Positions 3,216 through 62,518 of a stretch of 64,000 nt of DNA are shown here, piece after piece. A program made the position numbers and the translations under genes. Below the pieces are notes generated by a model, which was not told where the DNA came from, searched no databases, and worked only from the letters and a program-made list of their open reading frames with translations. The stretch's first letter is position 1; the number at the start of each line of letters is the position of its first letter. The DNA is from Acidobacteriota bacterium. Its GTDB lineage: Bacteria > Acidobacteriota > Blastocatellia > UBA7656. The stretch lies in assembly GCA_016201275.1 (NCBI GenBank), contig JACQDB010000125.1, positions 1-64,000 on the forward strand. Reading direction: 5' to 3'.

Positions 3216-3665
3216 TTATTGCCCGACGATGTCTTTTTTGAGGCCGGAGATGGCGGTCAAGACTTCGCCTTTCTCTTTCGCCGGGACGTTGAATTTATCG
3301 AGCGTTGCGGTCAGGTGCTTGACCGAAATATCCCAGTCTTTTTCGGTAATCTTCAAGCCTGTATGCACCGTCTTCATGTCTCTGCCGGTATAGACACAGG
3401 GGCCGCCTGTGGCGTTGCAGAGAAAATCTATGACCAATTGGCGTATGCGTTTTTGCGAACTTTGGCTGGCTCCCACAAAAAAACGGCCTACCTGTTTGTC
3501 GGTTGCCAGTCGTCCGATGAAATCATCGGTGACCGCTGCCAGAGCGTCATAGCCGCCCAATCTTTTATAGAGCGAATCGCCACCTTGCGCTTGGGCCGTG
3601 GTCAGGTTCACCGTCAGCATCGTCAGCAACATTATTGAGCAAAAGAGAGAAGTGATTTTTTTCAA
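3216..3665 (-). CDS. Exported group I truncated hemoglobin
   Basis: 149 residues counted from a TTG at 3665, preceded by AGGAGG at 7-bp spacing. An upstream in-frame extension has no such site. Residues 1-24 form a signal peptide ending in AQA, so the globin is predicted to be periplasmic, which is unusual because most truncated globins are cytosolic. The globin fold runs from SLYKRLGGYDALAAV to the end. Visible marks are FIGRLATDKQVGRFF, the proximal-His region KTVHTGLKI and the C-terminal helix AKEKGEVLTAISGLKKDIV. Two Cys residues (FLCNATGGPC) could form a disulfide after export. Likely role is haem-based binding of O2 or NO, or redox chemistry. It is monocistronic. Confidence 0.85.
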   Translation of the reverse strand: MKKITSLFCSIMLLTMLTVNLTTAQAQGGDSLYKRLGGYDALAAVTDDFIGRLATDKQVGRFFVGASQSSQKRIRQLVIDFLCNATGGPCVYTGRDMKTVHTGLKITEKDWDISVKHLTATLDKFNVPAKEKGEVLTAISGLKKDIVGQ

Positions 3666-3882
3666 GGTAAGTCCTCCTGATGGAAATTGGATGAAAGAAT
3701 TTGCGCCTGGGGTAACCAACCAGACGCGCCGCCTGAATCTGCGCTCAAGCCGGTAGGGTCTGCCTGCTTTGCGGTGGCAATGCCGGTTTGACAACCCCAA
3801 CGGCAATGGACGCTTTGAAGTGAGGTACTACGCAGAAAAAAATTGAGCGGTTTTGGCAGAAGAAAATTTCCTGTGGAAATAA

Positions 3883-4086
3883 AGAAAGCACGAAGAACCC
3901 TGTGTTTCCTCGTGCTTTCTGTTGGAGCCTCCCGGTTTTCAGGCGAAAACCGAAAATGGGCAGGATAACGAGGCTCCCCCTTGACTGCGGCGAGGGGATA
4001 TCTCTGCAGTCAGGAATTTGCGGCTGATGAACGGTGTTCAGCCAAGCTGTGGTGGCCTTGTTGCTTGAGCGGGAGGGGTTGCCACC
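3883..4086 (-). ncRNA. Candidate structured RNA, five consecutive stems
   Basis: Five perfect or near-perfect stems lie end to end: GGTGGC/GCCACC (4051-4086), GGCTGA/TCAGCC (4022-4043), TGACTGC/GCAGTCA (3982-4012), GGAGCCTC/GAGGCTCC (3924-3977, enclosing an inner GGTTTTC/GAAAACC helix), and a 10-bp AGAAAGCACG/CGTGCTTTCT stem (3883-3920). Read on the minus strand, the last stem is followed by TTTATTT like an intrinsic terminator, which favours that strand. It could be a riboswitch or leader for the globin gene about 220 bp downstream, or an independent small RNA. I do not recognise the family. Confidence 0.45.
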
Positions 4087-4281
4087 ATTTTCAAAAAGCC
4101 CGATGCATAAATCGTGTTCTACGAATAATGCTCAAATTCTTTCCCTGAGTTGAGGGACGGAAAAAAAATCAAAAAGCGTACAAAAATTTTTTTATTTTGA
4201 ATTTTTTTTTTAAGCAGAAAGAAGCAAGAATATTTAAGAAATTGCCGGTTGGGGCTGCGACTGATAAACCGTCAAAAAATG

Positions 4282-4562
4282 GTAGTGGAGCAATGCGGAG
4301 AGAGGGAGTTTGGCGTTGCGCCTTCCGACGGTTTTATGGTTTGCGACAGCCGCCGCCTTCGGGCCAATGGCGTTAAGTTGTACCGCAGACTGTCTAGTCT
4401 GCGGCTGACAGCAGCAAGCTAAGACTGGGATTTTGCACGCTTCTGCCACCAAGCCCGCCGCCGGCTAGACCGCCTGCGGTACATCTATGCCGCTTCACTT
4501 CATGCCATTGGCCTGTAGGCGCAACGCCAAACTTTTCTTTTCTCTCCTCTTTGACCCACTAC
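4282..4562. repeat. Long palindromic repeat family C, copy 1
   Basis: About 280 bp, beginning GTAGTGGAGCAATGCGG and ending TTTGACCCACTAC. Large parts are self-complementary, including GCAGACTGTCTAGTCTGC and GGCTAGACCGCCTGCGG. Copy 2 at 13215-13505 shares the same blocks in the same order, with small insertions and deletions. No coding capacity. It resembles a MITE or a degraded insertion-sequence derivative. Confidence 0.75.
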
Positions 4563-4722: not shown

Positions 4723-5391
4723 ATGATTGATGAAGCAGGCTTCTGCCTTACCGAAGCGGTTTTATCGCCCAATGAATGCGACCGCTTGAGCGAAAAATTG
4801 TTGACCGGCCTTTCAACACGGGGGCGCGCTGGCGCTCGTCATTTGATGGCCAATCCCGATATTGCGGCACTTGCTTTTGATGACCGCCTGATGGAGATCG
4901 CCCGGAAATCGTTGGGCGCTCAAGCGGTGCCTTACCGCGCTACGCTATTCGAGAAATCCGGTCGCGCCAACTGGCTGGTGGTCTGGCATCAGGATACGGC
5001 TTTACCGCTGGCCGCACGAGTGACCTCCGATGAATGGGGGCCGTGGGCAACGAAGGCAGGAGTTTGCTATGCTCACGCGCCGACCTGGGCTTTGCAACGC
5101 ATCCTCGCCTTGCGTCTGCATCTGGATGCCTCAACGCCGCAAAACGGTGGGCTGCGAGTGATTCCCGAATCGCATCGTCTGGGAGTGCTGACGGATGACG
5201 CCGTATTTGAAAGAGCGCGTCAGCAACCAGCCGTTGCTTGTCTGGTTGGTCGTGGTGGCGTATTGGCGATGCGTCCACTGCTCATTCATTCCTCGTCAAA
5301 AGCCGTGGTTGATCTGCCGCGTCGGGTGATTCATATTGAATACGCCGAGACGCTTAATCTCGGCCAAGGGGTTCGTCTGGCAATCACCTAA
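4723..5391 (+). CDS. Phytanoyl-CoA dioxygenase (PhyH)-like protein
   Basis: 222 residues, cytosolic, with a double-stranded beta-helix 2-oxoglutarate/Fe(II) oxygenase pattern. The iron site is visible as H-x-D in VVWHQDTALPL (about 90) and the distal His in MRPLLIHSSSKAV (about 185), followed by an Arg-containing strand (PRRVIHIEY) that would hold 2-oxoglutarate. The usual RLHLDASTPQNGGLRVIPESH segment is recognisable around 140-160. Substrate unknown; the family hydroxylates diverse small molecules. The ribosome site is weak. The gene stands alone and converges on the VPS10-type gene, with a strong hairpin (5473-5524) between them. Confidence 0.8.
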   Translation: MIDEAGFCLTEAVLSPNECDRLSEKLLTGLSTRGRAGARHLMANPDIAALAFDDRLMEIARKSLGAQAVPYRATLFEKSGRANWLVVWHQDTALPLAARVTSDEWGPWATKAGVCYAHAPTWALQRILALRLHLDASTPQNGGLRVIPESHRLGVLTDDAVFERARQQPAVACLVGRGGVLAMRPLLIHSSSKAVVDLPRRVIHIEYAETLNLGQGVRLAIT

Positions 5392-5472
5392 ACTTGCGCG
5401 CAAACTTTTGCCTTGGTAACAACTCAGACAATGATGATAGCGACTTCCACTTGCCCACGACCACAACACCTA

Positions 5473-5524
5473 GTTGAGAGGCGGTCTGTGACCACTGCAT
5501 AGCGATCACAGACCGCCTCTCAAC
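5473..5524. repeat. Hairpin repeat family D, copy 1
   Basis: Perfect 19-bp stem GTTGAGAGGCGGTCTGTGA / TCACAGACCGCCTCTCAAC with a 14-nt loop, placed between two convergent genes. It could serve as a two-way terminator even without a T-run. The same design with different bases occurs twice in tandem at 14798-14918, and a shorter form lies at the heart of repeat B. Confidence 0.75.
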
Positions 5525-5557
5525 TCATCGGTTTTGATTCTGCCATTCAGGGTTATT

Positions 5558-10887: not shown

Positions 10888-11753
10888 TGAGAAACCTCCA
10901 TTAGTGATTGTGCAGCCGCGCTAGAGCTACGATTGGCTATAGTGAGGCCGACAGTTTACGGTTCAGCTATAAAGATAGCGCAATGCTGCGAAAATCTCCA
11001 TTTACAGAAAGCAAAATCCGCCTGATGACAGCGATGATTTTATCAGCGTCTCCGCCCGCCGCCCGCCGCAACAGCTTTTCGCACACCAAGGTAACAGCAA
11101 GCTCTGTGCGGCGAAACTTTGCTTTCCTCTGCAACGAGAGCCGCGCTTGCGACGCCTTGCCGTAGCTTGATCGGTCATAAAATTTCTACTGCCTGAGCAG
11201 GGAAACTTACACAATCCGCGACCGCTGCGCTGTTAGCTGTCAAGGTGCGGGGTTGCTTGCACCAATGATTGGCGACCGTCATAGCGAATGCTTGGTGCGG
11301 TAGCGCATGGGCGAGGGCGTACTAGCGCTTCTTCAAACGATAGGAACTTGACATGAAATTTACGCGACCATAAAATTGAGGCAATCAAGTGAGATTAAAA
11401 TGACTTATTCGTTCGATACTTGATTGAACCAGCATGGGAAGCCACTGCGCCTGAAATTTTGCACAACTTGATTGTCACAAGTTAGGCAAGATGCTTATTA
11501 AGAAATTGCTGAAGCTGTTTAACCATGGCTTCACCCTCCTGACACCAACGAAACAGGTGTTAGGAGCGAAGAGATTTTCCGGGTCATCTTAACTTCTAGA
11601 GCGGTTTTTGTTTGAGATTACGGAAACCTCAAACCCGTTGAGCGGCGGTCGAAGACCGCTGCTCAACGATAGGGGGTTCAGTACACCCATATGAAAACCG
11701 CTCTAAGAGCGTTCAATAGAATACGCCTGTGATTTCAGTGGATAGGAGCAACC
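10888..11753. other. Noncoding region with repeat B copy 2
   Basis: No convincing gene on either strand; short open frames near 10908-11214 lack ribosome sites and recognisable sequence. It holds repeat B copy 2 (11597-11705). The 3' part feeds the small HTH gene at 11754. Confidence 0.5.
11597..11705 (+). repeat. Palindromic repeat family B, copy 2
   Basis: Begins TAGAGCGGTTTTTG and ends AAAACCGCTCTA. It carries the GTTGAGCGGCGGTC / GACCGCTGCTCAAC hairpin without the internal duplication found in copies 1 and 3. It lies 48 bp upstream of the small HTH gene and may supply or disturb its promoter. Confidence 0.85.
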
Positions 11754-13214: not shown

Positions 13215-13505
13215 GTAGTGGGTCAAGGAGGAGAGAAAAGAAAGGTTTGGCGTACCGCCTTCAGGCCAATGGCGTTAAGTTAAGAAAAACGGTACCGCAG
13301 ACTGTCTAGTCTGCGGCTGACAGCGGCAAGCTAAGACTTGGATTGCGCGCGCTTCTGCCACCAAGTCCGCCGCAGGCTAGACCGCCTGCGGTACCTCTAT
13401 GCCGCTTAACTTCATGCCATTGGCCTTCAGGCGGCGGCTGCCACAAACTATAAAACCGTCGGAAGGCGGTACGCCAACCTCCCTCTCTCCTCCTTGACCC
13501 ATTAC
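13215..13505. repeat. Long palindromic repeat family C, copy 2
   Basis: Begins GTAGTGGGTCAAGGAGGAG and ends CTCCTCCTTGACCCATTAC, so the outer ends are a near-perfect inverted repeat. The interior shares the GCAGACTGTCTAGTCTGC and CTAGACCGCCTGCGG blocks with copy 1 (4282-4562). It ends 26 bp before the start codon at 13532. Confidence 0.75.
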
Positions 13506-14797: not shown

Positions 14798-14918
14798 CCC
14801 CGTTGAGAAGCGGTCTCTGACCGCCAGCCTCGCGGTCAGAGACCGCTTCTCAACGGGAAAGGTAGTCAGAGACTGCTTCTGCCAGTCTCGCGGTCAAAGA
14901 CCGCTTCTCAACGGGAAA
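14798..14918. repeat. Hairpin repeat family D, tandem pair
   Basis: A perfect 25-bp stem starting CCCGTTGAGAAGCGGTCTCT pairs with AGAGACCGCTTCTCAACGGG (to 14857) around a 9-nt loop. A second, imperfect copy follows at once (to 14918). It is the same design as 5473-5524 and lies between tandem genes. It may act as a terminator or as a REP-like element. Confidence 0.75.
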
Positions 14919-28680: not shown

Positions 28681-28985
28681 AGAGTCGAGGCGGTTTGGCC
28701 ATTCGTCTGAATCCCCTCAATAGAGAGTCGAGGCGGTTTGGCCATTCGTCTCAATCCCCCCAACGGCAGTTGGGGGATGCTTAAAGTCCAGCCTACACAC
28801 CCAGCAAGCAAAGTTTTCTTCAATCCCCCCAACGGCAGTTGGGGGATAGTTAAAGTCCAGCCTTGAGCTTCGAGCAAGGTTGGATTTTAACCATCCCCCG
28901 ATTTCCATCGGGGGGATTCGTTATCTTTAGCAGCGTTTCGTAGGTTGGATTTTAAGCATCCCCCGATTTCCATCAGTGGGATTGG
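28681..28985. repeat. Repeat family E cluster (REP-like)
   Basis: Two direct copies of AATCCCCCCAACGGCAGTTG with a GGGGAT..TTAAAGTCCAGCC tail (28752-28793, 28820-28862) are followed by two inverted copies with a variant loop (GGTTGGATTTTAA..CATCCCCCGATTTCCATC, 28876-28918 and 28941-28983). A separate direct repeat AGAGTCGAGGCGGTTTGGCC occurs at 28681 and 28724. Each unit can fold as a short hairpin. The arrangement resembles REP/BIME clusters. Spacing and orientation do not fit CRISPR. Confidence 0.8.
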
Positions 28986-29054
28986 CAAGGTTGGTTCGCC
29001 GCTGGAAAATACACAAGGTCGAGCTAAGGCAGCGAGGTAATCAGCCGTCGCGTC

Positions 29055-58273: not shown

Positions 58274-58565
58274 GTTACCTTGCTGCGTGAGAGGCGAGAA
58301 TGGCTGGTGCAAAATATCGCCCTGACGAATCGAGGTGGAATAATTTCGATGAAGGATACATCAATACCGGAAGCGGATTGGAAAATCTGGCGGTGGCTGA
58401 AGAATTCGCCCTAGAGCGGTTTTGGTTTGAGATTACGGAAACCTCAAACCCGTTGAGCGGCGGTCGAAGACCTTCGCACGGTCGAAGACCGCTGCTCAAC
58501 CATAGGGGGTTCCGTACACACTTATGCAAACCGCTCTAGGTTTGGTGTCGCCACATGGGATTGAT
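58274..58565 (-). pseudogene. M14 peptidase 3'-end remnant split by repeat B
   Basis: On both sides of the repeat B copy, DNA matches the end of the intact M14 gene: GGTTTGGTGTCGCCACATGG on one side and GAATTCGCC on the other, reading NPMWRHQT and GEFF. Past GEFF the match fades, with a weak FHLD match in a shifted frame. It is a diverged, non-functional duplicate. Confidence 0.7.
58412..58538 (+). repeat. Palindromic repeat family B, copy 3
   Basis: TAGAGCGGTTTTGG...CAAACCGCTCTA with the internal GGTCGAAGACC duplication. It sits in the M14 remnant. Comparing with the intact M14 copy (GCCTTGGGTTTGG against GCCC-TA[element]TA-GGTTTGG) shows a TA target duplication. Confidence 0.9.
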
Positions 58566-61952: not shown

Positions 61953-62518
61953 AATCTCCTCCCTTGAATCAAGGTGGCGGAATCGGAAATTGCCAAGCAA
62001 GGAAAAGGTGAACGGTAGCGCTACGGAAAGCGACCAAAGCTTTTACTCAGTTTGCCTTTTACTTTTACCTTTTGCCTTTTTATGAGTGAAGTGGTCGAGC
62101 ACGCTCATGTCCGCGCCAGTGGAAGCACGGTCACGAACGCGCCCGTCTTGTGCCTAAGACTGAAAATGTTTTTCAGTGGTTACAAAATTTTTTTTCACGT
62201 CACAAATTTTTTTGGCGCAGCAAAATCCTGTCAGCCCTGACCACTTTTTGCAAGCCATAGACTTTCAGAAAAAGATTTCTTCTGCAACGATCTATACGGG
62301 CGACCCTGCGGTGGTTGCCCCTTCTTGAAATTGCATGACTTTGGGGCAGGGGCGACCACCGCAGGGTCGCCCATACAAGGCTGCGGTTGATTGCTCCAGA
62401 AAAACATTTTCTTAAAAGCTATAGATTGACAACGCCTACGCCTACGCCTTAGCGTATTTACCCCATCGCATATCATCTATGAAGTTGGCCTCGCGCACGC
62501 GCACGACAGGTAAAATTT
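61953..62518. other. Gap with repeat H and array
   Basis: No gene. Holds GCCTTTT/ACTTTT/ACCTTTT/GCCTTTTT (62049-62084), an array-like phrase with only a weak inverted partner (AAGGAAAAGGTGAA, about 62000), and repeat H. Confidence 0.5.
62296..62374. repeat. Palindromic repeat H
   Basis: Perfect 18-bp inverted repeat GGGCGACCCTGCGGTGGT (62298-62315) / ACCACCGCAGGGTCGCCC (62355-62372) with inner TGCCCC/GGGGCA. Similar GGGCGACC palindromes are known as dispersed repeats in other phyla. It may double as a hairpin upstream of the kinase gene. Confidence 0.7.

Follow-up and report, generated by a model that had tools for sequence, protein, structure and literature searches.

A conserved structured RNA of the Blastocatellia, most likely read from the minus strand and probably an independent small RNA

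Results

The window analyzed here is a stretch of 64,000 nucleotides from a member of the class Blastocatellia (phylum Acidobacteriota), taken from contig JACQDB010000125.1 of assembly GCA_016201275.1. The element under study occupies positions 3883-4086 and is intergenic, the RNA on the minus strand being flanked by a PhyH gene that points in the opposite direction (4723-5391) and by a gene for a truncated globin (Bac_globin; PF01152, E 2.4e-15) on the minus strand at 3216-3665, which is its downstream neighbor and lies outside the RNA gene. The N-terminus of the globin has, judged by eye, the look of a signal peptide, in keeping with a first-pass annotation of this DNA that had placed an exported globin downstream of a candidate RNA. 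The same annotation had seen no coding potential in the stretch and this held up, in that the only overlapping open reading frame of at least 50 amino acids is a 55-residue frame on the plus strand and relatives are separated by indels within the stretch. Two adjacent DUF4349 genes running in the same direction (218-1120 and 1458-2453), perhaps a tandem duplication, were also observed in this part of the window.

Five stems had originally been described in about 200 bp. The stems are real and lie where they had been located; their number, in contrast, comes to six helices within 4088-3883, five of which (P1 to P5) make up the modeled core. This conserved core (3923-4088, minus strand) scored 84.6 bits (E 8e-19) with the covariance model R1, from which the window had been left out, and 125.3 bits with the later model R3, in whose training the window was included. 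On the minus strand, P1 is a stem-loop at 4051-4086 (strands 4086-4081/4056-4051) with the segments CCCCUCCC (4071-4078) and GCUCAAGC (4063-4070) in its loop, P2 is a stem-loop at 4022-4043 (strands 4043-4038/4027-4022), and P3 is a stem-loop at 3982-4012 (strands 4012-4006/3988-3982) displaying UCCCCU in its loop (3993-3998). P4 (3924-3977; strands 3977-3970/3931-3924) is a closing helix that encloses the P5 hairpin (3933-3952; strands 3952-3945/3940-3933), the joining segment carrying the C-rich sequence CCUGCC at 3959-3964. The sixth element, P6 with its T-rich tail (3877-3920, minus strand), resembles an intrinsic terminator: a hairpin of 15 pairs, 6 of them G-C (3920-3883), is followed by TTATTT, which bears out the T-rich end ascribed earlier to the last stem on the minus strand. 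A strong hairpin was found at the position of P6 in all seven genomes of the family of the source genome (hereafter f1) that carry the RNA, the T-rich tail behind it being clear in two of them, G000 and G005, and weak or absent in the other five.

On the 5′ side, a putative and weak promoter of the form TTTGY-N20-CGTC was located at 4156-4184 on the minus strand, 68-96 nt from the core, with its CGTC at 4156-4159. A motif sampler placed a promoter-like motif here or at a like place in 6/7 genomes, with a score of 19.5 vs 18.4 for a downstream control, and a TGC-N20-CGTC dyad was present in five of the seven, a count equaled or exceeded by 3 of 40 shuffled sets. None of the dyad tests was significant, whether position was disregarded (3+4 bases, 5 in the real set and at least 5 in 3/40 shuffles; 4+4 bases, 4 and 8/40; 3+3 bases, 6 and 9/40) or required (real counts of 4, 3 and 4, with 1/40, 1/40 and 7/40 shuffles, respectively). 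Since the preceding gene of the window, PhyH, points the other way, the RNA is likely to have a promoter of its own. About 210 nt upstream of the core lies one copy (4300-4545) of a dispersed intergenic repeat forming a long imperfect palindrome, the other copy being at 13232-13487 (88% identity over 179 nt).

The minus strand of the element folded with a minimum free energy z-score of -3.94, none of 200 shuffles being as stable; the fold of the plus strand, with a z-score of -3.11, was of lower energy than that of the minus strand. When 204-nt windows were slid over the same 64 kb, 21 of 626 equaled or surpassed the element once G+C content had been corrected for, the z-score of the element being -1.8 in this comparison. 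As long intergenic hairpins abound in the window, folding alone is thus weak evidence. It is the compensatory changes in relatives that carry the case. The same abundance of hairpins is what could be said for a chance structure or a palindromic repeat element, an explanation to which we attach a negligible probability: compensatory changes and single-copy conservation oppose it, and no second copy of the RNA was detected in the window, nor above chance level in the genome.

Several of the intergenic hairpins deserve mention in their own right. A dispersed palindromic repeat of ~135 nt, with ends AGAGCGGTTT and AAACCGCTCT and a nested GTTGAGC hairpin, is found at 2690-2835, 11597-11711 and 58405-58538 (83-97% identity) and has a MITE- or REP-like appearance. 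Near-perfect palindromes of the form GTTGAGA-GCGGTC...GACCGC-TCTCAAC lie at 5472-5525 and 14799-14857, and very stable inverted repeats at 28700-29000 and 62290-62380 count among the window's strongest fold outliers.

When 58 genomes were searched for DNA similarity to the stretch, only short pieces came up besides the window itself, and none of them was usable; the best of them (L009; E 1.4e-4, 46 bases) was rejected as it had no match to the RNA model. Globin matches were obtained in 23 of the 58 genomes, source genome included, and in five further f1 genomes the region upstream of the globin shared the architecture of the element but differed in its stem sequences. MAFFT alignments A1 to A3 misplaced helices, and alignment A4, consisting of three relatives without the window, was used to build R1. 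Model R2 was built from seven sequences, and R3 from the R2 set and one sequence (G083) from a second family of Blastocatellia (f3); alignments after A4 were made by the models and are thus biased towards the structure. A search of 17 sources with R1 returned, in addition to the three training sequences, the window core as well as G005 (E 6e-10) and G001 (E 2e-9), both from a further genus, with no match in the other 11 sources. Whole-genome searches identified exactly one copy of the RNA in each of the seven f1 genomes, including one that is not beside a globin (G003), and none in the one genome searched from another family of the same order. A pattern search of named genomes gave ten matches, four of which were true members; the named carriers are Blastocatellia bacterium AA13 (G001), Chersky_418 (G006) and nzgw74 (G005), and Chloracidobacterium sp. 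UBA7656 (G003).

In the R1 alignment of the seven f1 sequences, which was fitted to the structure and thereby favors it, and of which three rows had trained R1 and four had not, standard pairs filled 93.1% of 289 cells and both partners had changed in 24 of the 46 pairs. Partners slid out of register paired in 30-49% of cells, and none of 500 shuffles reached any of the five pairing measures. Thus, the covariance search in relatives that the first-pass annotation had proposed as a check revealed conserved pairing. Both-side changes affected 5/6 pairs of P1, 7/10 pairs of P2, 8/14 pairs of P3 and 3/8 pairs of P5. P4 was paired in 98.2% of cells, with six of its eight pairs invariant. Unpaired columns were not more conserved overall than paired ones (major-base share of 0.69 vs 0.75). 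As to the strand, f1 rows contained 32 G-U vs 4 A-C cells, and the four rows outside R1 training 16 vs 1, an excess that favors an RNA read from the minus strand over one read from the plus strand; f3 rows outside training, described below, showed a weaker excess (19 G-U vs 11 A-C).

The search was extended to 162 genomes of the class with R2, which retrieved the seven members, one f3 genome (G083; 30.9 bits, E 1.4e-4) and weaker matches in G040 and G027, where chance matches reach 26.5 bits (L081). With R3, applied to 39 genomes, a match was obtained in 8 of 25 f3 genomes, counting G083, which was part of its training. The scores were 58.4 bits in G082, from the same genus as G083, 50.9 in G058, 42 in G147 and 40 in G084, the lowest being 26.7. 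Because R3 also contains f1 rows, the link was rechecked with the f1-only models: R1 and R2 each recovered six of the eight f3 loci, and together all eight. Their matches coincided or overlapped with those of R3, and nothing else was hit in 23 kb at E up to 10, a check that is not fully independent given that the loci had been chosen by R3. Across the resulting 15 sequences, pairs form in 89.5% of 640 cells and both partners have changed in 34/46 pairs, among them three of the eight pairs of P4 and five of the eight of P5. Five of the eight P4 pairs never vary, and P5 is nearly identical throughout f3. The f3 matches are 130-162 nt long, and a T-run comes immediately after their P4/P5 hairpin, which is the anatomy of an intrinsic terminator; in 8/8 loci, at least four consecutive T residues occur within nine bases downstream of the last hairpin.

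The class and phylum scans used strict filters, with 17 and 7 candidates scored per genome, such that the lack of a match there, as in the 17 of 25 f3 genomes without an R3 match, does not amount to absence. Two matches were rejected for lying inside long reading frames (L081, in a 463-residue frame with a MurD-like look; L086, in a 507-residue frame). Matches in G040, G051, G027 and G272, the pattern match L074 (21.2 bits), and weak matches in G026, G034, G014 and G032 scored no better than these two. At two f3 loci (L092 and L093; minus strand, below 1500), very long near-perfect hairpins were seen to start ~15 nt after the RNA copy.

We then compared the genes on either side of the RNA, their identities in f1 resting on Pfam for the window genes, L061 and L063 and on protein clustering for the others. 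The order in G000, G002, G004 and G006 is BNR gene, RNA, globin, with a DUF4349-type gene next in G000, G002 and G006; in the window, PhyH stands between the BNR gene and the RNA. G003 has a BNR gene, the RNA and a DUF4252 gene, and G001 and G005 have genes for tryptophan dioxygenase and kynureninase, then the RNA and the globin. A BNR gene is thus found upstream in 5/7 f1 genomes and tryptophan-degradation genes in 2/7, and the downstream gene encodes a globin in 6/7 and a DUF4252 protein in 1/7. The neighbors of the f3 copies were read from lists of reading frames, with Pfam searches limited to four L095 proteins and the L097 regulator. On this reading, two-component genes precede the RNA in the same direction at 7/8 loci (a kinase and an NtrC-like regulator at six, a small response regulator at five), and an SbcD-like phosphoesterase follows it in at least four loci and something else in two.

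These arrangements bear on two cis-acting alternatives. The RNA could be a leader of the globin gene, a riboswitch or attenuator in which P1 to P5 would sense a signal and P6 would serve as a regulated terminator ~220 nt before the start codon. Such a role would accord with the terminator-like P6 of the window and with the co-directional position of the RNA upstream of the globin in six of the seven f1 genomes, G001 and G005 included despite the different genes on their other side. In G003, however, the RNA precedes the DUF4252 gene and the globin lies elsewhere without RNA; the RNA was missing from 10 of the 16 globin loci searched with R1, and no globin was recognized beside any of the eight f3 copies in the lists of reading frames. 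No neighbor being common to all copies, it is distinctly unlikely that the RNA acts in cis on the globin gene. The second alternative, an element of a 3′ untranslated region that in f3 would end the two-component operon and be released from, or stabilize, that mRNA, draws on the co-directional two-component genes at 7/8 f3 loci and on the terminator-like hairpin with which those copies end. Against it, the f1 copies follow unrelated genes, in the window one of opposite direction, and termination does not need P1 to P3; we consider it very unlikely. Neighbors on both sides thus change while the RNA stays, which, together with the globin loci devoid of it, favors an independent small RNA over a leader or riboswitch, two of the three possibilities that had been entertained from the outset for the minus strand.

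C-rich segments recur along the RNA. In f1, CCCCUCC or a like sequence is present in the P1 loop, the exact form in 3/7 only, and CCUGCC or CCUACC separates P4 from P5 in all seven. CUCAAG in P1 is found in 7/7 f1 and 0/8 f3 sequences, and UCCCCU in P3 in 7/7 f1 and 5/8 f3 sequences. Predicted folds of the seven f1 RNAs gave mean unpaired probabilities of 0.80-1.00 for UCCCC and 0.60-1.00 for CCCCU in P3; in some of these folds, most of the G006 P1 segment and most of CCUCC in P3 are taken up by base pairs. The f1 globin genes beside the RNA start behind AGGAGG- or GGGAGG-like sites, a type of ribosome-binding site with which the C-rich segments could pair. Hfq was detected in 8/8 genomes tested, consisting of the seven f1 carriers and G007, which lacks the RNA; CsrA was found in none of these eight, the control genomes being positive in 3/14.

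A further alternative is a structural or protein-binding RNA, either the core of a ribonucleoprotein or a protein sponge, with the near-invariant P4/P5 as the binding site. The five P4 pairs that never vary across the 15 sequences and the near-identity of P5 throughout f3 would suit such a function, as would the single copy in each f1 genome. On the other hand, several hairpins carry unpaired C-rich segments, a repetition for which a single protein site would have no use, and the version in which the RNA sponges CsrA calls for the plus strand and for CsrA, where the strand test points to the minus strand and the protein was found in none of the eight genomes. We regard this explanation as unlikely.

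Discussion

The comparative evidence supports a conserved structured RNA, most likely read from the minus strand, that lies outside Rfam 15. No family of that release reached its gathering score in the window or in 15 related loci, in line with the first-pass annotation, which had not recognized a family. The best score at the element was 26 of 70 bits, for STnc420 on P6; matches below the gathering score at related loci were mostly to microRNA families on other hairpins, and one (ncr1175, 30.5 of 60) touches the L092 copy. None of the literature matches listed described an RNA of this sort from Blastocatellia.

In our best reading, held at a probability of about 0.6, the element is an independent, trans-acting small RNA that would pair with ribosome-binding sites through its C-rich loops. 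Independent small RNA genes of this type would form a family in the class, the window copy being read from the minus strand with a start somewhere before 4088 and an end at the P6 hairpin near 3877. Separate hairpins would present the C-rich segments (CCCCUCCC, UCCCCU and CCUGCC in the window copy), and these may pair in trans with the purine-rich ribosome-binding sites of several mRNAs, thereby blocking translation, perhaps with the assistance of Hfq. More tentatively, the RNA may have moved between chromosomal neighborhoods while keeping its fold, and could use its several loops to silence many ribosome-binding sites or, with its near-invariant P4/P5, form the core of an unknown ribonucleoprotein; we hold this wider proposal to be possible but doubtful.

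Acidobacteriota have few listed small RNAs, one review counting four distinct annotated ones for the phylum (PMC9029176), and the present one comes with strong comparative support. Together with a covariance model and four named carriers, this support makes the RNA searchable in metatranscriptomes and in cultured relatives.

The RNA is a new family of a known kind. Its array of hairpins is reminiscent of sponges of the CsrB/RsmZ type, and its plus strand would, by eye, show GGA in some loops, as such sponges do; it differs from them in that CsrA was found in none of the eight genomes tested and its covariation fits the minus strand better. The candidate non-coding RNAs Acido-1 (RF01686) and Acido-Lenti-1 (RF01687), reported from Acidobacteria in the part of the literature concerned with them (PMC2864571), are unlike the present RNA in that neither was among the matches listed for the window or the 15 related loci. 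Further parallels are found among small RNAs with anti-Shine-Dalgarno-like motifs. The alpha-r14/NfeR1 RNAs of Alphaproteobacteria, or 'cuckoo' RNAs, are described in sections of one study as three hairpins with variable stems and an identical CCUCCUCCC, exposing unpaired anti-Shine-Dalgarno-like motifs, NfeR1 being Hfq-independent (PMC10746234). The RNA studied here likewise has several hairpins, variable stems and unpaired C-rich motifs of this sort. Unlike in alpha-r14/NfeR1, the segment varies from one hairpin to the next and there is an additional two-helix P4/P5 domain; the RNA also belongs to another phylum and has no match in Rfam. Nor does the window copy contain CCUCCUCCC, and it therefore does not belong to the alpha-r14 family itself. 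In Staphylococcus, RsaE and other UCCC(C) small RNAs pair with Shine-Dalgarno sequences through a UCCCC seed, according to excerpts of a further article (PMC9217828). UCCCCU in the P3 loop recalls that seed in an RNA of different architecture and phylum. By analogy, then, the RNA could act in the manner of alpha-r14/NfeR1 and RsaE.
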